Origin: Yersinia vastinensis | GTDB lineage: Bacteria; Pseudomonadota; Gammaproteobacteria; Enterobacterales; Enterobacteriaceae | NCBI RefSeq assembly: GCF_902726565.1 | Contig: NZ_CACVAF010000001.1 | Coordinates: forward strand, 124,001 to 188,000 | DNA: 64,000 nt | Direction of reading: 5' to 3' | Shown: piece after piece, positions 3,550 through 12,583 of the stretch | Numbering within the stretch: the stretch's first letter is position 1 | Layout: each line of letters opens with the position of its first letter | Program-made: the position numbers and the translations under genes | The notes under the pieces: model-generated | Database searches by the model: none | What the model was told of the DNA's origin: nothing | What the model saw: the letters and a program-made list of their open reading frames with translations, nothing else

Positions 3550-3894
3550 GTGAATGATGTAGCCGCATTGAATGCAGCCGAGAACCCTGGAATGGAAGAG
3601 GCCATTATCATCACCGAGCGGGTATTAACTGAAATTACCGCGATGTTAAATGCCGAAAATATTTTCACCAATGCCGTACAACAGCAAATGTTGACATCAC
3701 ATATTCGGGCCATGGTGCTGCGCTCAATAACGGGTGAGCCATTACCTGAAGTGGATAAATCATTATTTGATGAGATTTCAGCTCATTCGATGAACATGGC
3801 GCAACAAGTGGTCGATAAGTTTGCCAATTTACCCATTGAGGAAGCTTATTTACTGTCAGTGCATTTTGAAGTCGCGAAAGATAATAACCCATAA
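3550..3894 (+). CDS. Stand-alone PRD-domain protein (EF_0829/AHA_3910-type)
   Basis: A 114-aa protein with a GTG start at 3550, preceded by GAGG at 3537-3540. It has the all-helical character of a PTS regulation domain (PRD) and no DNA-binding part. His residues such as TSHIRAM and SVHFEVA could be phosphorylation sites. PRDs are normally phosphorylated by HPr or EII components and are found inside antiterminators and activators. A free PRD as first gene of an operon is the signature of the EF_083x/AHA_391x gene set named in protein-family databases (recalled). It probably senses PTS state and acts with the regulator at the far end of the island. An ATG at 3592 is a less likely start. Confidence 0.75.
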   Translation: MNDVAALNAAENPGMEEAIIITERVLTEITAMLNAENIFTNAVQQQMLTSHIRAMVLRSITGEPLPEVDKSLFDEISAHSMNMAQQVVDKFANLPIEEAYLLSVHFEVAKDNNP

Positions 3895-3917
3895 AATTCT
3901 GATCTGGAGAAGAGACT

Positions 3918-4283
3918 ATGAGTCAAATTACCGTTGTGATTGGTGACCGTTTAGGAAAAGGCCAGAAAGTTGGGCAGGGTGTTGAATTAGCCGGTGGCCG
4001 TGTGGTGGTTATTCCCGGTGTTGCCGCAGATATGAAGTTAGGTGATGTGATGAATAGCGAAAAGGCAGACTTCGGTATTTCATTCTGTGGTAGCGGTGGT
4101 GCAGGCGCAATTACGGCGCAAAATAAATATGGTTACAAAGCAAAATATGGCATGCGTTCAATCGAAGAAGGAGTGACAGCAATAAACGAAGGCTGCAAGG
4201 TATTGGGCTTCGGATTTATGGATAAAGAAGAGCTAGGGCAGAAATTAGTGGAAGCCTATATCAAGAAATATGGTCAACCGTAA
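3918..4283 (+). CDS. Glycine-rich SFCGS-family protein
   Basis: A 121-aa soluble protein starting at the ATG at 3918 behind GGAG. It carries the family signature ISFCGSGGAG at residues 54-63, with Cys57 in a glycine-rich loop, and a second Cys at 93. There is no signal peptide or membrane segment. Molecular function is unknown. It always travels with DUF4312, DUF4311 and DUF4310 genes (recalled). Its size, position before two membrane proteins and exposed Cys resemble a PTS EIIB subunit, but that is inference from layout, not from sequence homology I can demonstrate. The stop codon overlaps the ATG of the next gene by one base. Confidence 0.85.
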   Translation: MSQITVVIGDRLGKGQKVGQGVELAGGRVVVIPGVAADMKLGDVMNSEKADFGISFCGSGGAGAITAQNKYGYKAKYGMRSIEEGVTAINEGCKVLGFGFMDKEELGQKLVEAYIKKYGQP

Positions 4284-4579
4284 TGAAAGAGCAATATACC
4301 ACCCAGGTGCAGGTAAAGGGCAACGGCGATACTAAAGCTAAAGCTTTCGCCAATGCACTTGGTCATGTCCAAAATACAGTGTTGAAGTCGACACAAAATA
4401 TTTTACTGCGAATTGAACCGCAGGACGTCAAAGTATTAAAAGCAGAATTATCAGTAAAAAATGAAAAGTTTTTATTCTTTTTTCTGCCTCGGGAAAGAAA
4501 GACATATAGCGTTGAACTCGATATTACCGTGAGCGTGACAATCATTAATACAGATAAGGTTGATTTCGTTTCTAAATAA
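4283..4579 (+). CDS. DUF4312 family protein
   Basis: A 98-aa soluble protein translated by TAATG overlap with the SFCGS gene, hence tightly coupled. It is predicted alpha/beta, with a basic, aromatic stretch FLFFFLPRERK at residues ~64-74. There are no Cys or His residues in obvious catalytic contexts. Function is unknown. It belongs to the EF_0831/AHA_3912 group (recalled). Given the strict stoichiometric coupling with the SFCGS protein and the adjacent membrane pair, it is probably a cytoplasmic subunit of the same complex. Confidence 0.85.
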   Translation: MKEQYTTQVQVKGNGDTKAKAFANALGHVQNTVLKSTQNILLRIEPQDVKVLKAELSVKNEKFLFFFLPRERKTYSVELDITVSVTIINTDKVDFVSK

Positions 4580-4655
4580 AAACAGAGCAACCTTCATTCT
4601 TGAAGCCGCATTACCAAGACATTAGGTTAATGCGATTAGCGAAAAGGATATACTG

Positions 4656-5432
4656 ATGTTTCTAATCATTCTTTTTAAGTCGATTATTATCGGCGGACTG
4701 GTTGGCGTGGGGGTTGGCGTTGGGGCCGCCCGTATGTTCCATGCGCCTACCATACAGGGAATGGGTGCGTTTCGTACCTTGGGCGAGTTGAACTCGTGCG
4801 AGGGGGATCCCGCTTCGCACTTCTCCTTTGGGCTTGGATTCTTCTTCAACGCTTGGGCTTCTTCGGTCGCCGCAGGTGCTTTTACTCAGGACGTTGACCA
4901 CCGCATTATTCCTAACTGGGGTGCTGCAGCATTGATGATTAAAAATCGCAATGTGGCGGAAACCATGCATAACCCGAAAAAAATGGCGATTGCCTGCGGG
5001 ATTATTGGTGTCATTGTTGTCAGCTTCTTAAATACCACAGCATCAGCCGTTCCAGCTGCATTACAGGTTACAGCAATTAAAGTATTGGTCCCCGCGGCAA
5101 ATATTCTGGTTAACACCGTGATGCCCGTTATTTTCTGGTTAGCTGCAATTGATGCAGGACGACGTTCCGGTTTCTGGGCCACTATTTTTGGTGGGTTGGC
5201 ACAGTTAATTATGGGCAACGCCGTACCGGGTCTGGTTTTGGGTATTTTAATTGGTAAAGGTGTTGAAGAAAGCGGCTGGAATAAAGTAACTAAAATCATG
5301 ATGACAGTCATTGTTCTGTTATTCGTGCTCAGTGGTTTCTTCCGCGGATTCGACATGAAATTCCTGGAGTCATTCAGTCTGAGTGCACCAGTATGGCTTG
5401 AAACTATTCATAACGCATTGAGCGGAAAATAA
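4656..5432 (+). CDS. DUF4311 family membrane protein
   Basis: 258 aa, strongly hydrophobic, with about six to seven predicted membrane segments (roughly residues 2-24, 55-76, 108-130, 133-160, 170-200 and 212-232). The first segment contains a glycine zipper (GGLVGVGVGVGAAR). A conserved-looking polar loop follows (GAFRTLGELNSCEGDPASHF). It belongs to the EF_0832/AHA_3913 group (recalled) and has no assigned function. It lies 15-22 bp upstream of DUF4310, another membrane protein. The two together look like the membrane part of a transporter. Confidence 0.87.
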   Translation: MFLIILFKSIIIGGLVGVGVGVGAARMFHAPTIQGMGAFRTLGELNSCEGDPASHFSFGLGFFFNAWASSVAAGAFTQDVDHRIIPNWGAAALMIKNRNVAETMHNPKKMAIACGIIGVIVVSFLNTTASAVPAALQVTAIKVLVPAANILVNTVMPVIFWLAAIDAGRRSGFWATIFGGLAQLIMGNAVPGLVLGILIGKGVEESGWNKVTKIMMTVIVLLFVLSGFFRGFDMKFLESFSLSAPVWLETIHNALSGK

Positions 5433-5453
5433 CACAGCGAGAGGAGCTTGATG

Positions 5454-6104
5454 ATGGATGAACAAACCAAGAATAATTTCTGGTATGCCGACTGGTCATT
5501 TCCGATCTTTGTAGGATTATTATCCTCTGGCGTATTTGCTGGTACCCATATGTATTATCTTTATGGTATCGGTGCATTTAACGAAGTGGCCTTTGTTTCG
5601 ATGTTACGGGCGGGAATGGATACCGGTGTTTATGGCGCAGTGGCTGCGTTTGGTGCCAGTTTCTTATTTGCCCGTATTATTGAAGGCTCACTGGTGGGTA
5701 TTTTAGATATCGGTGGTGCCATTCAGACGGGGGTTGGTCTGGGTGTGCCTGCATTATTACTGGGTGCGGGATTTGTATTCCCTGTCGCTAACTTTGCTGC
5801 CTCTTTGGTGACTGGCCTGATTATTGGTTTAGCCATCGGTTATCTGATTATTTTGGCGCGTAAATTTACGATTAACCAAAGTAATTCGACTTACGGTGCA
5901 GATGTCATGATGGGCGCAGGTAATTCATCTGGTCGTTTCTTGGGGCCATTGATTATTTTGTCAGCCATTACGGCATCAATTCCAATTGGAATTGGCTCTT
6001 TAGCTGGCGCATTACTGTTTTATCTGTGGAATAAGCCTATTACCGGTGGCGCGATCCTTGGCGCGATGATTTTAGGATCTATTTTCCCAGTCGCCATTTC
6101 TTAA
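5454..6104 (+). CDS. DUF4310 family membrane protein
   Basis: 216 aa and mostly hydrophobic, with about six membrane segments. After a short charged N-terminus (MDEQTKNNFWYADWSFP), glycine-rich helices follow, and the motif GADVMMGAGNSSGRFLGP lies in the C-terminal half. The start is taken at the second of two adjacent ATGs (5454) because GAGGAG at 5441-5446 is then 7 nt away. The ATG at 5451 is also possible. It belongs to the EF_0833/AHA_3914 group (recalled) and its function is unknown. It is the partner of DUF4311 and is followed by a large hairpin. Confidence 0.87.
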   Translation: MDEQTKNNFWYADWSFPIFVGLLSSGVFAGTHMYYLYGIGAFNEVAFVSMLRAGMDTGVYGAVAAFGASFLFARIIEGSLVGILDIGGAIQTGVGLGVPALLLGAGFVFPVANFAASLVTGLIIGLAIGYLIILARKFTINQSNSTYGADVMMGAGNSSGRFLGPLIILSAITASIPIGIGSLAGALLFYLWNKPITGGAILGAMILGSIFPVAIS

Positions 6105-6108
6105 TCTA

Positions 6109-6144
6109 CAGGGTAAATATCCAAATATCTGGATATTTACCCTG
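6109..6144 (+). other. Intercistronic hairpin after DUF4310
   Basis: A perfect 14-bp stem: CAGGGTAAATATCC (6109-6122) with GGATATTTACCCTG (6131-6144), 8-nt loop. It is followed by CCTAATTTTCG, which is only a weak T-tract. The hairpin separates the transport-like genes from the enzyme genes of the same operon, so it may be a partial terminator or an mRNA-stabilising structure. Confidence 0.8.
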
Positions 6145-6201
6145 CCTAATTTTCGCAAATAACGTCTCGTTAACCCAGATGTTTAATGGAGAATAAAGAT
6201 A

Positions 6202-7344
6202 ATGCATGACTTTATTATCAAACGAGCAGCGTTGGTTGATGGCCGTCAGGTCGATATTGCCATTAATGATGGAAAAATAGTGTCAGTTAATGAGACTCAG
6301 TCATCTTCTGAGCTAGCCAAAAAAATCATCGATTTGGCAGGGAAATATTACCTCAGCGCAGGTTGGATTGACTCTCATGTTCACTGTTACCCAGCGTCTC
6401 CGATTTATCATGATGAAGCTGATTTGGTCGGTGTTGCCAGTGGTGTCACTACGGTCGTTGACGCAGGCAGTACCGGCTCCAATGATGTGGATGATTTTTA
6501 CCGCTTAACAAGGGCAGCAAAAACCCACGTTTACGCATTTTTGAATATTGCGAAAACCGGCATTGTGACGCAAAACGAATTAGCGGATATGACGCAAATC
6601 GATAAGCAAGCGGTCAGTGAGGCAATTGCCCGCAACCCCGGTTTTATTATTGGCATTAAAGCGCGTATGAGCAGCAGTGTGGTGGGTAAAAATGGCATCA
6701 AGCCACTGGTGCGCGCTAAAGAAATTCAACAAGAAAATAATCAGTTACCTCTTATGGTGCATATTGGCAATAACCCGCCAGATCTGGATGAAATTGCCGA
6801 CTTATTAACACAGGGTGACATTATTACCCATTGCTACAATGGCAAGCCAAATCGGATTCTGACGCCAGCGGGGACGTTGCGTGAGTCTATCCAACGTGCA
6901 CTTAAACGTGGTGTGCGACTTGACGTTGGCCACGGCAGTGCCAGCTTCAGTTTTGATGTTGCAGAACTTGCCATCAAACAAGGCATTTACCCGCACACTA
7001 TCAGCTCCGATATTTATTGTCGCAACCGTCTAAATGGGCCGGTACATAGCCTTGCAACGGTCATGTCCAAATTTTTCTCCATCGGTTTGAGCCTTGAGCA
7101 AGTTATTCGTTGTGTGACAGAAAATGCCGCTCAGGCCCTGCGTTTGACCCATAAAGGGGTATTGGGTGTGGGTTATGACGCTGACTTGACCATTTTTGAG
7201 CTGAAACAGCAGCCTCAAGTCTTCAGTGATTCAGAGGGCAAATCGGTTACTGGTGAACAATATCTGGTGCCACTGGCTGCGTTTGTTGCCGGTGACTTAG
7301 TATTAACTGACGAAGGGAAGTTAAAAGATGTCTTCAGTCTATGA
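6202..7344 (+). CDS. Amidohydrolase/deacetylase-type metallohydrolase
   Basis: 380 aa from the ATG at 6202. It is an amidohydrolase-superfamily TIM barrel of the EF_0837/AHA_3915 type (recalled). The metal motif HxH is at residues 59-61 (DSHVHC), followed by the likely bridging carboxylated Lys in GIKARM (~residue 154), His in MVHIGNN and THCYNG, and Asp in SSDIYC. The family includes N-acyl amino-acid and amino-sugar deacetylases, so cleavage of an amide or cyclic amide on the island's substrate is likely. The exact substrate cannot be read. The 3' end overlaps the next gene by 17 nt. Confidence 0.85.
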   Translation: MHDFIIKRAALVDGRQVDIAINDGKIVSVNETQSSSELAKKIIDLAGKYYLSAGWIDSHVHCYPASPIYHDEADLVGVASGVTTVVDAGSTGSNDVDDFYRLTRAAKTHVYAFLNIAKTGIVTQNELADMTQIDKQAVSEAIARNPGFIIGIKARMSSSVVGKNGIKPLVRAKEIQQENNQLPLMVHIGNNPPDLDEIADLLTQGDIITHCYNGKPNRILTPAGTLRESIQRALKRGVRLDVGHGSASFSFDVAELAIKQGIYPHTISSDIYCRNRLNGPVHSLATVMSKFFSIGLSLEQVIRCVTENAAQALRLTHKGVLGVGYDADLTIFELKQQPQVFSDSEGKSVTGEQYLVPLAAFVAGDLVLTDEGKLKDVFSL

Positions 7345-8440
7345 AAAATACCAGTTAAAGCAGGTTATTAATGCTTCAGGTCGTATGACGATGCTGGGGG
7401 TTTCGACGCCACGGCAAGATGTGGTTGATGCTGTGGAGCTGGGCCTGAACCATTACTTTGAAATGAAAGATCTGGTGAATAAAACCGGCGCTTACATTGC
7501 TAAATTACTGAATGTTGAAAGCGCGGTAGTTGTCGCCTGTGCTTCTGCCGGTATTGCTCAATCAGTTGCGGCAGTGATCGTCAAAGACGATGCCAATTTA
7601 TTGGTTAACTTGCATGCTGCCCCACGTACCGTGCCTCATGAGATTGTGCTGCCGAAAGGCCATAACGTTAACTTTGGTGCACCAGTCGATACCATGGTCA
7701 CGCTGGGTGGCGGTAAAGTGGTGGAGGCCGGTTATGCCAACGAGTGTTTACCTGAGCAGTTGGAAGCGGCTATCACATCAAATACTGCGGCGATCTTGTA
7801 TATAAAATCCCATCATTGTGTACAAAAAAGCATTCTCTCTGTTGAGCAGGCCGTCGTCATTGCTCGCAAGCATCAATTGCCATTAATTGTTGATGCGGCG
7901 GCGGAAGAAGACTTGCAGTGTTATTACCAAATGGGTGCTGATTTGGTGATATACAGCGGTGCTAAGGCCATTGAAGGGCCAACCAGTGGCTTGGTGTTGG
8001 GTAAGAAAACTTATGTTGAATGGGTGAAGTTGCAATCCAGCGGTATTGGTCGAGCCATGAAAGTCGGCAAAGAGGGTATTCTCGGTCTGACCCGTGCCAT
8101 TGAAAGCTACATGACGCTGGAGAAAGAGACTGGCCAACAGATGGTCGCGAAAATGACACCATTTATCAGCCAGTTGAATACTATTGATGGTGTCTCAGCC
8201 AAAGTGGTGTGGGATGCGGCTGGGCGCGATATTGCTCGCACTGAAATCAGTTTTGATGAAGCTAAAATTGGCCGTTCGACACCCGATTTGGTCGATGCAC
8301 TTAAAAATGGCGATATTGCAATTTATTTCCGCGCTTATAAAGCCAACGAAGGCAAGATTGAAGTCGATGTACGCAGTGTGACGTCATCACAGCTTGAAAC
8401 CATTTATACCTGCATTAACCGTTTGGTTCAGGGAGCCTAA
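7328..8440 (+). CDS. DgaE-like PLP-dependent ammonia-lyase (SelA-related)
   Basis: 370 aa. The fold-type I PLP enzyme signature YSGAKAIEGPTSG carries the Schiff-base Lys, with the preceding Asp in LIVDAAAEED. It is related to selenocysteine synthase SelA and to Salmonella DgaE, which removes ammonia from D-glucosaminate-6-phosphate to give 2-keto-3-deoxygluconate-6-phosphate (family knowledge). The next gene is a KDGP aldolase, exactly the partner DgaE needs, which strongly supports a similar reaction here. Translation is coupled to the amidohydrolase by the 17-nt overlap. Confidence 0.85.
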   Translation: MSSVYEKYQLKQVINASGRMTMLGVSTPRQDVVDAVELGLNHYFEMKDLVNKTGAYIAKLLNVESAVVVACASAGIAQSVAAVIVKDDANLLVNLHAAPRTVPHEIVLPKGHNVNFGAPVDTMVTLGGGKVVEAGYANECLPEQLEAAITSNTAAILYIKSHHCVQKSILSVEQAVVIARKHQLPLIVDAAAEEDLQCYYQMGADLVIYSGAKAIEGPTSGLVLGKKTYVEWVKLQSSGIGRAMKVGKEGILGLTRAIESYMTLEKETGQQMVAKMTPFISQLNTIDGVSAKVVWDAAGRDIARTEISFDEAKIGRSTPDLVDALKNGDIAIYFRAYKANEGKIEVDVRSVTSSQLETIYTCINRLVQGA

Positions 8441-8443
8441 GTC

Positions 8444-9184
8444 ATGAAATTAACGCCAAATTATTACCGTGACCGGGTATGCCTGAATGTGCTGGCCGGT
8501 TCAAAAGAGAATGCGAAAGAGATTTATCAGGCCGCGGAAGGCCATGTGCTGGTGGGCGTATTATCGAAAAATTATCCGGATGTCGACAGTGCAGTCAAAG
8601 ACATGCGTGAGTACGCCGCACTTATCGATAATGCGCTGTCCGTCGGGCTGGGTGCCGGTTGTCCGAAGCAATCGGCGATGGTCAGCCAGATTTCGCAGCA
8701 GGTTCAGCCACAGCATGTGAATCAGGTATTTACTGGTGTTGGTACTAGTCGTGCCTTGCTGGGCCAAAAAGATACCGTCGTCAACGGCTTGATTTCACCT
8801 ACCGGCACAGTGGGATATGTGAAAATTTCGACTGGCCCGCTCAGTTCACAACAAGAAGATGCGATTGTCCCAGTCACTACTGCCATTGCCATGTTGAAAG
8901 ACATGGGCGGCAGCTCGGTGAAATTCTTCCCGATGAATGGACTGGATTCTATCGAAGAATACCGTTGTGTCGCGGAGGCGTGCGCTGCTACCGGTTTCTG
9001 GCTGGAACCCACTGGTGGCATTGATCTGGAGAATTTCGAGGAAATCCTGCAAATCGCGTTGGATGCGGGTGTAACAAAAATTATTCCGCATATTTATAGC
9101 TCAATCATTGATAGTCAGAGTGGTAATACGCGCCCAGAAGATGTGAACACTTTACTGGATATCATGAAGAGGATTGTACCGTAA
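8444..9184 (+). CDS. KDGP aldolase family protein (DgaF-like)
   Basis: 246 aa, starting 3 nt after the DgaE-like gene. It belongs to the EF_0839/AHA_3917 aldolase group (recalled), a class I TIM barrel. The probable Schiff-base Lys is in GGSSVKFFPMNGL, with the phosphate-site motif EPTGGIDLENF near the C-terminus. The predicted reaction cleaves 2-keto-3-deoxy-6-phosphogluconate (or an isomer) to pyruvate and glyceraldehyde-3-phosphate. With the preceding gene it forms the lower pathway of the island. Confidence 0.87.
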   Translation: MKLTPNYYRDRVCLNVLAGSKENAKEIYQAAEGHVLVGVLSKNYPDVDSAVKDMREYAALIDNALSVGLGAGCPKQSAMVSQISQQVQPQHVNQVFTGVGTSRALLGQKDTVVNGLISPTGTVGYVKISTGPLSSQQEDAIVPVTTAIAMLKDMGGSSVKFFPMNGLDSIEEYRCVAEACAATGFWLEPTGGIDLENFEEILQIALDAGVTKIIPHIYSSIIDSQSGNTRPEDVNTLLDIMKRIVP

Positions 9185-9226
9185 CTGGCTGATTTATTGA
9201 CTATAAATTGAAATAAGTGTGAAAGC

Positions 9227-9260
9227 ACCGTCAGGGCCATGCTCTGTATGCCCTGACGGT
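9227..9260 (+). other. Intercistronic hairpin after the aldolase gene
   Basis: A perfect 11-bp inverted repeat, ACCGTCAGGGC (9227-9237) with GCCCTGACGGT (9250-9260). No T-run follows (AAACGG). It lies in the 173-bp gap before the exported lactonase gene. It is probably an mRNA 3'-stabilising hairpin or rho-assisted stop rather than an intrinsic terminator. Confidence 0.75.
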
Positions 9261-9357
9261 AAACGGTATGTGTCGCACTATTTTACCTGTGAGTCTGGAT
9301 GTTAGGTTGGATAGCTCTCCATACCCTCTGATAGCCATTCCCTGTGAGAAAAATAAT

Positions 9358-10578
9358 ATGCCTAACCCAACACATTCCGCAGTAAAAAGCCTGTCAGCGG
9401 GCATCGCACTGGCGATGGTCACGTTGATAAACCCGCTGGCGCATGCCGAACAGATGGCCGATAAATCATTCGCTTATGTCGGCACCTATCATCCGAACGG
9501 TGAAGGCGTTTATCGCCTACAAGTCGATGCCAAGACTGGTGAGTTGACGGAGAAAACCTTGGTCAGTTCACTGGCTAATCCAGCACAATTAGTGGTGGAT
9601 GCTCAGGGTAAAACGCTGTATGTCGCCAGCGAAGTGGCTGATTACAACGGCGGTAAACATGGGGCGATTGCGGCATACAGCATTAACTCTGCTGACGGCA
9701 ATTTGACGCTGATAAATCAGGTGGACTCTCAAGGCGCGGGGCCAGTGTTCCTCTCATTGACGCCGTCTGGCAGCCATTTACTGGTGGCAAACTATATCAG
9801 TGGGTCGGTGGCCGTTTTCCCGGTGCAAAGTGGTGGCAAACTTTCTGATGCCAGTTCGGTACAGCAAGATGAAGGCCCCGCGGGCGCGGCTAAACCGGCG
9901 GCCGCAGTGGAGGGGAGCTTTGCTATTAGTGATCACAATGGGCCACATGCACATATGATTGCCAGTGATCCGAGCGGTAAATTTGTATTTTCTACTGATT
10001 TGGGGTTGGATCGAATTTATCAATACCGCTTTGATGCAGACAATGGCAAGTTGATACCTAATGATCCCCCCTACATCAGTGCATCCTCTGCGGGAGCAGG
10101 CCCACGTCATTTTGTATTCCATCCTAACGGCAAGACGCTATTCTTAATCAACGAAGAAGCCTCAACCTTGACCAGTTATGAGTTGGACTTGCAGAAAGGC
10201 ACGTTGAAACCGCTAAATACCTTGTCGTCGTTACCGGCAGATTATCGTGGCACGAGCTTCGCTGCGGGTTTGACGCTCTCAAAGGACGGAAAATTTCTGT
10301 ACGTAGCAAACCGTCTGCATAACAGTATTGGCCAGTTTGCTGTGACAGCCGATGGCAAATTTAAGCCTGTGGAAGATGTCTGGACGCGGGGAGATTATCC
10401 GCGCACGTTGGTACTTGATCCGACAGGTCACTACCTGTATGCCATGAATCAACGCAGCGATAACATAACTCGCTTTAAAGTTGATCCGCAAAGTGGCAAA
10501 TTGACCTTTGTACCCGGCTATACCGCGGTTGGCAGCCCATCACAAATGGTGTTTGTACCTTCAGCACAGAAAAAGTGA
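9358..10578 (+). CDS. Exported lactonase-family beta-propeller (6-phosphogluconolactonase-like)
   Basis: 406 aa from the ATG at 9358. In-frame codons upstream do not encode a better start. A signal peptide covers residues 1-~27 (hydrophobic SAGIALAMVTLINPLAHA-EQ). The mature part has the repeating strands of the 7-bladed lactonase propeller (YVGTYHPNGEGVYRL..., YVASEVADYNGG..., DHNGPHAHMI, GAGPRHFVFHPNGK, YVANRLHNSIGQF). Cytoplasmic members such as Pgl/YbhE hydrolyse 6-phosphogluconolactone. The export signal suggests action on a non-phosphorylated sugar lactone in the periplasm. Its position between the aldolase and the regulator ties it to the island. Confidence 0.83.
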   Translation: MPNPTHSAVKSLSAGIALAMVTLINPLAHAEQMADKSFAYVGTYHPNGEGVYRLQVDAKTGELTEKTLVSSLANPAQLVVDAQGKTLYVASEVADYNGGKHGAIAAYSINSADGNLTLINQVDSQGAGPVFLSLTPSGSHLLVANYISGSVAVFPVQSGGKLSDASSVQQDEGPAGAAKPAAAVEGSFAISDHNGPHAHMIASDPSGKFVFSTDLGLDRIYQYRFDADNGKLIPNDPPYISASSAGAGPRHFVFHPNGKTLFLINEEASTLTSYELDLQKGTLKPLNTLSSLPADYRGTSFAAGLTLSKDGKFLYVANRLHNSIGQFAVTADGKFKPVEDVWTRGDYPRTLVLDPTGHYLYAMNQRSDNITRFKVDPQSGKLTFVPGYTAVGSPSQMVFVPSAQKK

Positions 10579-10654
10579 TGTGAGGAGCGCGCCCCGTCGG
10601 TAATGCTGGCGGGGAATGCCTCGATAACTATCTTCTAAATAACGGAGTGGAGCA

Positions 10655-12583
10655 GTGAGATTTCCCTATCAACGTCTGGCCTATATGTTCGATGCGCTGC
10701 AATCGGAAACGCTGCCTCAGGAGGAGTTGGCGAAACGTTTTGCGGTCTCGACACGTACAGTACGGGCAGATATTACGGCGTTGAATGAGATTCTTGAGCA
10801 TTATGGTGCGCATTTTATACATAACCGTGGCTTTGGTTATCGACTGATGATTGATGATGCCGAGCGCTTTCGTGCTCTACAGCAACAAAATCGTAAAATG
10901 CACCTAACCCCGCGTACTGCCAATGAGCGGGTGCACTATCTATTAATCCGTTTTCTGACCTCTGCCTTTTCATTAAAGCTGGAAGATTTAGCTGACGAAT
11001 GGTTTGTTAGCCGTGGCACATTGCAAAATGATATGGCTGAGGTGAGAGAAAGGCTAAATCGCTATCATCTGACGATTGAAACCAAACCCCGTTATGGCAT
11101 GAAATTGTTTGGTACAGAACTGGCTATCCGTACTTGTCTGACGGATTTATTGTTCCAGTTACAATTGCAGGATGCCGATAACCCATTATTAAAGAATGAG
11201 TTTCTTAGCATCCAAACCATGCCGGAATTGACGGGGTTGCTGCATGAATTATTAGCGCAATATGCGGTGCGGTTGACTGATGAAGGAGAGCAATACCTGA
11301 TTTTCTACTGCGCAGTGGCAATAAAACGCATCACTGATGGTTATCCATTATCTGATTTTGATGCAGAAGATGTGGATGAGGCGGTGAAGTTGGCCTCAGG
11401 CCGTTTAGCAAATGAGCTTAAGTTGTTATCAGGTAAAGATATTTCAGCAGCAGAAGAGGCTTATCTTCGTGTGAATATTGCGGCTCGCCGGGTTCAGGCC
11501 AGTCAGCCTAGCACCAGTCGGCCTAGTGAAATCAATGCTGATGACGAAGAGACGCTAGTGGACTACATCCTCTCGTATATCAATGCTCACTATAACTATA
11601 ATTTGCAGAGTGATAAGCAGCTGCGGATTGATTTACTGACCCATATCAAGACCATGATAACTCGGGTGAAATATCAGATTACGATTCCTAACCCACTGTT
11701 ATCTAATATTAAACAGCATTATCCCATGGCCTATGATGTGACATTGGCCGCGGTTTCCAGTTGGGGAAAATACACTCCTTATAGCTTGAGTGAAAACGAA
11801 ATTGGCTATTTGGTGCTGCATATTGGGGTTGGGTTGGAGCGCCATTATAATATCGGTTATCAACGCCATCCACAGGTGATGCTGGTGTGTGACACGGGCA
11901 ATTCCACTACTCGTATGATTCAGGCGCAAATTTCTCGTAAGTATCCACAGATCGTGATGACACAGACAATTTCCCTGCGTGATTACGAAAATCTTGAGCA
12001 TATCGACGAAGATTTCATTATTTCTAATTCGCGATTAGCGGAAAAAAATAAGCCAGTGGTGGTGATGTCACCCTTCCCGACGGAATATCAGTTGGAGCAA
12101 TTGGGTAAGCTGGTCTTGGTGGATCGCACGCGGCCTTACATGCTGGAAAAGTTTTTTGATAGCAATCACTTTATGATTATCGACCAACCGATGACTCAAG
12201 AGCAGTTGTTCAAGAAAGTGTGTACTCAGTTAGAAGAAGAGGGGTTTGTCGATGCGGATTTCTACCCGTCAGTGGTGGAGCGCGAGGCGATTGTCTCCAC
12301 TATGCTGGGTGAGGGGATCGCGCTGCCGCATTCACTGGGTCTATTAGCCAAGAAAACGGTGGTCGTCACTTTACTGGCACCTAATGGAATCGCTTGGGGT
12401 GACGGTGAGGTAGCCCATGTTATTTTCTTGCTGGCTATCAGTAAAACCGATTATGAAGAAGCGATGGCCATTTATGATTTGTTCGTGACCTTTGTGCGCG
12501 AGCGCTCTATGAGCCGTTTATTGAGCAGTCAACATTTTGATAGTTTTAAGGCTATTGCGATTGATTGTTTGAGTCGCATTTAG
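10655..12583 (+). CDS. PTS-regulated transcriptional activator (BglG/MtlR type)
   Basis: 642 aa with a GTG start at 10655 behind GGAGTGGAG. Domains in order: DeoR/HTH_11-like helix-turn-helix (residues ~5-65, FAVSTRTVRADITAL), a second Mga-like HTH (~85-160), PRD1 (~170-280), PRD2 (~295-400, YLVLHIGVGLERH), EIIB-like domain with Cys412 in VCDTGNST, and EIIA (fructose/mannitol type) with His559 in GIALPHSLG. Such regulators are activated or silenced by PTS phosphorylation and substrate supply (family knowledge). As the last gene of the island, it most likely controls it. No AAA+ domain is present, so it is not a LevR-type sigma-54 activator. Confidence 0.88.
   Translation: MRFPYQRLAYMFDALQSETLPQEELAKRFAVSTRTVRADITALNEILEHYGAHFIHNRGFGYRLMIDDAERFRALQQQNRKMHLTPRTANERVHYLLIRFLTSAFSLKLEDLADEWFVSRGTLQNDMAEVRERLNRYHLTIETKPRYGMKLFGTELAIRTCLTDLLFQLQLQDADNPLLKNEFLSIQTMPELTGLLHELLAQYAVRLTDEGEQYLIFYCAVAIKRITDGYPLSDFDAEDVDEAVKLASGRLANELKLLSGKDISAAEEAYLRVNIAARRVQASQPSTSRPSEINADDEETLVDYILSYINAHYNYNLQSDKQLRIDLLTHIKTMITRVKYQITIPNPLLSNIKQHYPMAYDVTLAAVSSWGKYTPYSLSENEIGYLVLHIGVGLERHYNIGYQRHPQVMLVCDTGNSTTRMIQAQISRKYPQIVMTQTISLRDYENLEHIDEDFIISNSRLAEKNKPVVVMSPFPTEYQLEQLGKLVLVDRTRPYMLEKFFDSNHFMIIDQPMTQEQLFKKVCTQLEEEGFVDADFYPSVVEREAIVSTMLGEGIALPHSLGLLAKKTVVVTLLAPNGIAWGDGEVAHVIFLLAISKTDYEEAMAIYDLFVTFVRERSMSRLLSSQHFDSFKAIAIDCLSRI

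Follow-up and report, generated by a model that had tools for sequence, protein, structure and literature searches.

A PRD-only/SFCGS/DUF4310-4312 gene module beside putative amino-sugar acid enzymes in Yersinia vastinensis: a possible PTS-coupled uptake system

The DNA analysed here (the window) is a stretch of 64,000 nucleotides of Yersinia vastinensis (contig NZ_CACVAF010000001.1, positions 124,001 to 188,000), whose genome assembly comprises 44 contigs and 4.52 Mb; the closest named relatives of the window proteins come from Yersinia pekkanenii and Yersinia sp. Marseille-Q3913. Positions 3550-12583 carry ten genes, all co-oriented on the + strand, at the positions given by an earlier interpretation made from the letters alone (the sequence-only reading). 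Each of the ten proteins exceeds at least one curated NCBIfam or Pfam cut-off. The first five genes form a module encoding (i) a PRD-only protein of the EF_0829/AHA_3910 family (3550-3894; TIGR03582, 131 bits for a cut-off of 69); (ii) an SFCGS protein (3918-4283; TIGR03577/PF14272); (iii) a DUF4312 protein of 98 residues (4283-4579; TIGR03578); (iv) a DUF4311 membrane protein (4656-5432; TIGR03580); (v) a DUF4310 membrane protein (5448-6104, with a likelier start, judged by eye, at the ATG of 5451; TIGR03579). Three enzyme genes follow, i.e., an amidohydrolase/deacetylase of the EF_0837 family (6202-7344; TIGR03583, solved relatives 8wzy and 2ics), a pyridoxal phosphate (PLP) ammonia lyase of the DgaE family (7328-8440; TIGR01437) and a DgaF-like KDGP aldolase (8444-9184; PF07071/NF047796, solved relative 3lm7).

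The last two genes encode a lactonase-type beta-propeller (9268-10578), with a signal-peptide-like hydrophobic stretch near the N terminus and a likely start, by eye, at the second Met (about residue 30), and a HTH-Mga-PRD-EIIA2 transcription regulator (10655-12583); both are above Pfam cut-offs and above no NCBIfam cut-off. Seven proteins, namely the five of the module, the amidohydrolase and the aldolase, belong to the EF_0829-EF_0839/AHA_3910-3917 set (TIGR03577-TIGR03583), each over its curated cut-off. The families of the locus are named already, the SFCGS and DUF ones as conserved hypothetical proteins in NCBIfam. The stop codon of the SFCGS gene and the ATG of the DUF4312 gene share one base (TAATG at 4281-4285). 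The overlap, from which translational coupling had been proposed, is thus real in the window but is not kept elsewhere: the gap is 2 bases in Klebsiella and 30 bases in Enterococcus faecalis.

A scan of genome contigs with an SFCGS alignment confirmed at least 472 relatives. The best 80 were kept, a choice that favours Pantoea, Enterococcus and other Lactobacillales, and Bacillus-like genera; together with records of E. faecalis, Bartonella and Klebsiella they make 83 loci (designated L below), in which gene presence was assessed by BLAST with single references within the fetched stretches. All five module genes are present in 80/83 loci. Two of the incomplete loci (L030, L040) are cut by contig ends; in the third the DUF4312 frame is broken by a stop (L045:3490-3900, Lactiplantibacillus xiangfangensis), the neighbouring module genes being open. 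Successive module genes lie 400 bases or less apart in 82/82, 80/82, 81/81 and 82/82 pairs (the distance being taken up to the stop that precedes the second frame), the PRD-only gene travelling with the transport-like genes. The enzyme trio is complete in 76/83 loci. L033 and L041 hold the module and its regulator with no enzyme gene, the DgaE-family enzyme being on another contig of the same genome. It is thus supported that the four SFCGS/DUF proteins and the PRD-only protein form one unit. In this respect the sequence-only reading, which had four proteins, is supported, as regards the unit and not its transport function.

The distribution of the module is patchy. DUF4310 was found in 21/197 genomes of the order (one being a 31-residue fragment) and in 1/274 genomes of the class sample, the window's own; SFCGS was found in 12/398 genomes of the phylum sample, each of the 12 belonging to the same family as the window. 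When E. coli genomes were searched by blastn with positions 3918-7344, no match was obtained. Homologues of SFCGS and DUF4310 exist in Aliivibrio fischeri. Both pmbA and cybC lie upstream of the window locus and of the Klebsiella locus. Upstream of 26 other Enterobacterales loci (so assigned by record title), both are found in 23, pmbA alone in one (L082) and neither in two (L081, L083), which argues for an old syntenic locus. The locus is old and patchily kept rather than a recent island.

The predicted model of SFCGS has the RpiB/LacAB fold by structure search, although the best structural match, among these isomerases, has about 15% identity and the score against PF02502 (RpiB/LacAB) is 16.3 bits, below the Pfam cut-off of 24.7. 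The EIIB-lac structure 3nbm came at rank 50 (E 0.01, TM 0.43), RpiB fitting much better, and by profile the E values were 1.1e-4 for RpiB and 0.049 for mannose-type EIIB. On this model SFCGS is an RpiB-fold protein rather than an evident EIIB, and its earlier placing in the EIIB position is not borne out. Cys57, in the motif CGSGGAG, is invariant in 42/42 aligned sequences and aligns with the catalytic Cys at position 66 of RpiB; the CGS/CGT loop is also common to SFCGS and the RpiB relatives. On the contrary, RpiB His99, responsible for ring opening, corresponds to N90 in the window and to a variable position across the SFCGS alignment. The C terminus of SFCGS falls at about RpiB residue 131 (structural alignment with 2vvr), so that the phosphate-binding Arg133/Arg137 pair lies beyond its end. 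SFCGS thus differs from the RpiB/LacAB isomerases by the lack of these residues and by its linkage to membrane genes.

The PRD-only protein scores 19.7 against Pfam PRD, below the cut-off of 23, and no DNA-binding domain was found in it. H51 and H105 are invariant in 72/72 rows of the family alignment (the window plus 71/82 open reading frames, 11 having been removed by a length filter). Among the ten proteins, an EIIA domain was found only in the regulator of 10655-12583. In the latter, the PRD histidines H330 and H389 are kept in 80/80 and 79/80 rows, respectively, C412, whose loop resembles that of EIIB by eye, in 80/80, and the EIIA H559 in all 30/80 rows having a residue at that position. 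PTS (phosphotransferase system)-sensing regulators had been placed at both ends of the locus; only the right-hand one, of HTH-PRD-EIIA2 type, looks like a regulator, the left-hand one being a PRD-type protein.

Hydropathy confirms DUF4311 and DUF4310 as polytopic, and both contain many invariant charged residues. No hydrophobic segment was found by hydropathy in DUF4312. Fused DUF4311-DUF4310 proteins exist in databases (P0334, P0339, P0341), some of which may be products of assembly or sequencing; such fusions fit a joint membrane unit. The statement that no EIIB, EIIC or EIID is recognisable proved right for the five module proteins, none of which matched these families in Pfam up to E 1 (it must be noted that the HMMER filters drop most weak matches).

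The lyase, the only DgaE-family gene over the cut-off in its own genome, scores 595 bits for a family cut-off of 385 and 364.7 for the D-glucosaminate-6-P ammonia-lyase equivalog, whose cut-off is 600. The aldolase exceeds the DgaF equivalog (398 for a cut-off of 300). The DgaE/DgaF assignment thus stands at the level of the DgaE family and of the DgaF equivalog, but the substrate D-glucosaminate-6-P does not follow from it, since the lyase fails the corresponding equivalog. D-glucosaminate has the D-amino-acid configuration at C2. As the amidohydrolase family is said to act on N-acetyl-D-amino acids, this configuration would suit such an enzyme. The pathway would run from an N-acyl amino-sugar acid (6-phosphate) through deacylation by the EF_0837-type amidohydrolase and ammonia elimination by the DgaE-type lyase to aldol cleavage. 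A lactonase gene occurs in the operon of the window and of Klebsiella only, among the loci seen (1/83 besides the window); it is not a core gene, and the lactone form of the substrate, suggested earlier, is therefore not supported.

The Salmonella D-glucosaminate permease, dgaABCDEF, is reportedly a mannose-family PTS, to judge from the title of its description (Miller et al. 2013). The dga system and the window have in common a DgaE-family lyase, a DgaF-type KDGP aldolase and a regulator with PRDs. They differ in that the mannose-family permease is replaced in the window by the PRD-only/SFCGS/DUF4312/DUF4311/DUF4310 set, the window has an amidohydrolase in addition and its lyase is under the DgaE equivalog cut-off. 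In the description of the dga system in PMC4987338, the regulator is a LevR-like sigma-54 regulator.

Kinase families (NCBIfam, Pfam) were found in none of the ten window proteins. Mannose-family EIID genes number three in the window's genome and may be read, from the N-termini of their neighbours, as belonging to man, aga and a third operon. Single references matched in the 83 loci as follows: EIIC 19, MupG 18, PfkB kinase 15. Among the 76 loci with the full enzyme trio, 56 have no match to the EIIC, MupG and PfkB references used, other kinases lying outside this search. In two related Bartonella plasmids a ptsP gene adjoins the operon (L004:8047-10062, L135:15405-17420); in that of L004, the one tested, Pfam recognises domains of HPr and EI. 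Since several protein accessions are common to both plasmids, they represent one case, not two. Type VI secretion genes are neighbours of the operon and of the PTS-type EI gene on these alphaproteobacterial plasmids. An HPr-EI match was obtained in one other locus, that of Enterococcus ratti (L043), which has two separate frames upstream. In enterococcal loci, a 99-residue hydrophobic protein lies between EIIC and MupG (L003:14166-14465) and has no Pfam match at E 0.1.

A comparable architecture is seen in the yhf operon of E. coli (yhfS to yhfZ with php). Like the window locus, it has a lone PRD-type protein (YhfY), a protein of about 120 residues with a Cys-Gly-rich loop (YhfU) and a polytopic membrane protein (YhfT), together with a PLP-type enzyme and a putative hydrolase; from yhfS to yhfZ neither a kinase nor an EII gene is annotated. 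It differs by one membrane protein instead of two, the lack of DUF4312 and other enzymes. Q44, H51, R58, D69 and E75 are common to 8/8 PRD-type sequences (four YhfY-type, four EF_0829-type), whereas H105 is found in all four EF_0829-type sequences and in none of the four YhfY-type ones. Since the two types match only weakly (hhalign E 0.005, probability 3%) and are both PRD-like below the Pfam cut-off, a relationship closer than a common PRD is not proved. YhfU has its own invariant Cys (8/8) and matches RpiB at the same motif as SFCGS (E 2.7e-4, probability 42%); its match to SFCGS itself (E 5.6e-4, probability 12%) is suggestive only, and that to ascorbate-type EIIB (E 0.0086) is limited to 16 columns around the Cys loop. 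YhfT has no significant similarity to DUF4311 or DUF4310 by hhalign (E 0.23 and 0.56, respectively; 0.14 when joined). The parallel is presented as one of architecture. In the window's genome itself there are two clusters of yhf type, both containing genes for a PRD-only protein, YhfX, YhfU and YhfT, one with YhfZ as regulator and Php (C7, about 226200-231600; L162:4215-9604), the other with YhfW (C6, about 160000-164700; L163:7018-11700). Similar short antisense open reading frames lie between genes at two sites of the genome (L162:6777-7061 and L217:11458-11778) and look like copies of an intergenic repeat.

Gene content, conservation, the predicted SFCGS fold, the invariant Cys and His and the Bartonella HPr-EI link form the observed basis, from which we infer transport, a phosphoryl relay and a substrate. 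To the reading of 3550-6104 as a system taking up an N-acylated amino-sugar acid with PTS-coupled phosphorylation, and of 6202-9184 as its catabolism, we give an even chance. DUF4311 and DUF4310 would form the membrane channel; SFCGS would bind the sugar acid in the cytoplasm at the Cys57/CGSGGAG loop; the phosphoryl group would probably pass from HPr to His51 of the PRD-only protein, then to Cys57 of SFCGS and to the substrate; catabolism would end by aldol cleavage to pyruvate and glyceraldehyde-3-phosphate. Coupling of uptake to PTS phosphorylation is proposed because the enzymes are those of 6-phosphate pathways and because the operon shows no kinase.

Several results weigh against this proposal. 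The model of a DUF4311/DUF4310 fusion is poor (pLDDT 72, pTM 0.52) and gave no Foldseek match at E 0.001 or better. The comparison with EIIC/EIID and other carriers, put forward in the sequence-only reading, gave no match in Pfam, PDB-sequence or pairwise profile searches either, the last being insensitive, as the comparison pairs EIIC-EIID (E 0.12) and UlaA-EIICglc (E 0.44) also failed; transport by this pair is thus something that we infer. The RpiB-fold proteins returned by the structure search are enzymes and are not known to act as phosphocarriers. The HPr-EI linkage is a single case and might serve the PRD regulator only. Moreover, MupG and an ordinary EIIC occur as well in 18/83 loci. 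For L033, L041 and L022 (the latter locus being cut by a contig end after an aldolase gene), a DgaE-family cluster on another contig of the genome has its own EIIC, together with MupG, amidohydrolase, KDGP aldolase and a PfkB-type kinase relative (PfkB by Pfam in L160). DgaE is over the cut-off in 9/10 genomes examined for it, the tenth, that of L046, being a 1.7-Mb metagenome-assembled genome. A classical EIIC can thus supply the enzymes; in such a case the free acid may be the cargo of the module and a glycoside that of EIIC.

Among the alternatives, the one that survives best, though unlikely, takes the membrane pair as a plain ion-driven permease and SFCGS as an RpiB-superfamily isomerase or epimerase acting on the imported sugar acid, the kinase being elsewhere. 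The fold relatives RpiB, LacAB and DhuI are isomerases, whose Cys and CGS/CGT loop SFCGS keeps, and PfkB is matched in some loci (15/83, as above). However, the His99 position is variable and the Arg pair missing, SFCGS remains beside the membrane genes in loci whose enzymes lie elsewhere (L033, L041), and 56/76 enzyme-bearing loci match none of the kinase, EIIC and MupG references. That DUF4311 and DUF4310 are strongly diverged mannose-family EIIC/EIID, and the whole a degenerate mannose-type PTS, is improbable: the two-protein membrane part has roughly the size of EIIC/EIID, occupies the operon place of the dga EII genes and comes with a PTS-type regulator, but the searches above found no such relationship, within the sensitivity of the profile test, and SFCGS is nearer RpiB than mannose-type EIIB. 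Least probable is a membrane sensor that would inform the PRD regulator of a sugar acid, with another protein as permease: the PRD-only protein beside a regulator, the module and regulator without enzymes in L033 and L041 and the separate EIIC of some genomes agree with it, but two polytopic proteins of large size and high conservation seem more than a sensor needs, the window operon has no other permease gene and the PRD-YhfU-YhfT set of yhf type has another regulator beside it (YhfZ, in L162).

Four points are new here: SFCGS, with its conserved Cys, is predicted to have the RpiB fold; the PRD-only protein is a fixed module part with invariant histidines; there is a parallel with yhf; and ptsP is linked to the operon in Bartonella. 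Sugar PTS permeases are usually regarded as belonging to a few fixed superfamilies. A wider, tentative and rather doubtful extension of the PTS-coupled uptake proposal is that of a novel class of phosphorylating permease, fed by the PTS and comprising at least two branches (the EF_0829-0833 and yhf types; three clusters in this genome), in which the regulator-free PRD would be the histidine phosphocarrier, the RpiB-fold protein both cysteine phosphocarrier and substrate-binding subunit, and the membrane part unrelated to known EIIC. If the proposal is false, SFCGS is still named as a predicted RpiB-fold protein and the assumption of an EIIB slot is corrected. If it is true, (i) PRD-only and RpiB-fold proteins would replace EIIA and EIIB, i.e., a new coupling of uptake to phosphorylation; (ii) five poorly described families of Enterobacterales, enterococci and lactobacilli would obtain functions; (iii) the unassigned yhf operon of the laboratory strain E. 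coli K-12 would become testable.
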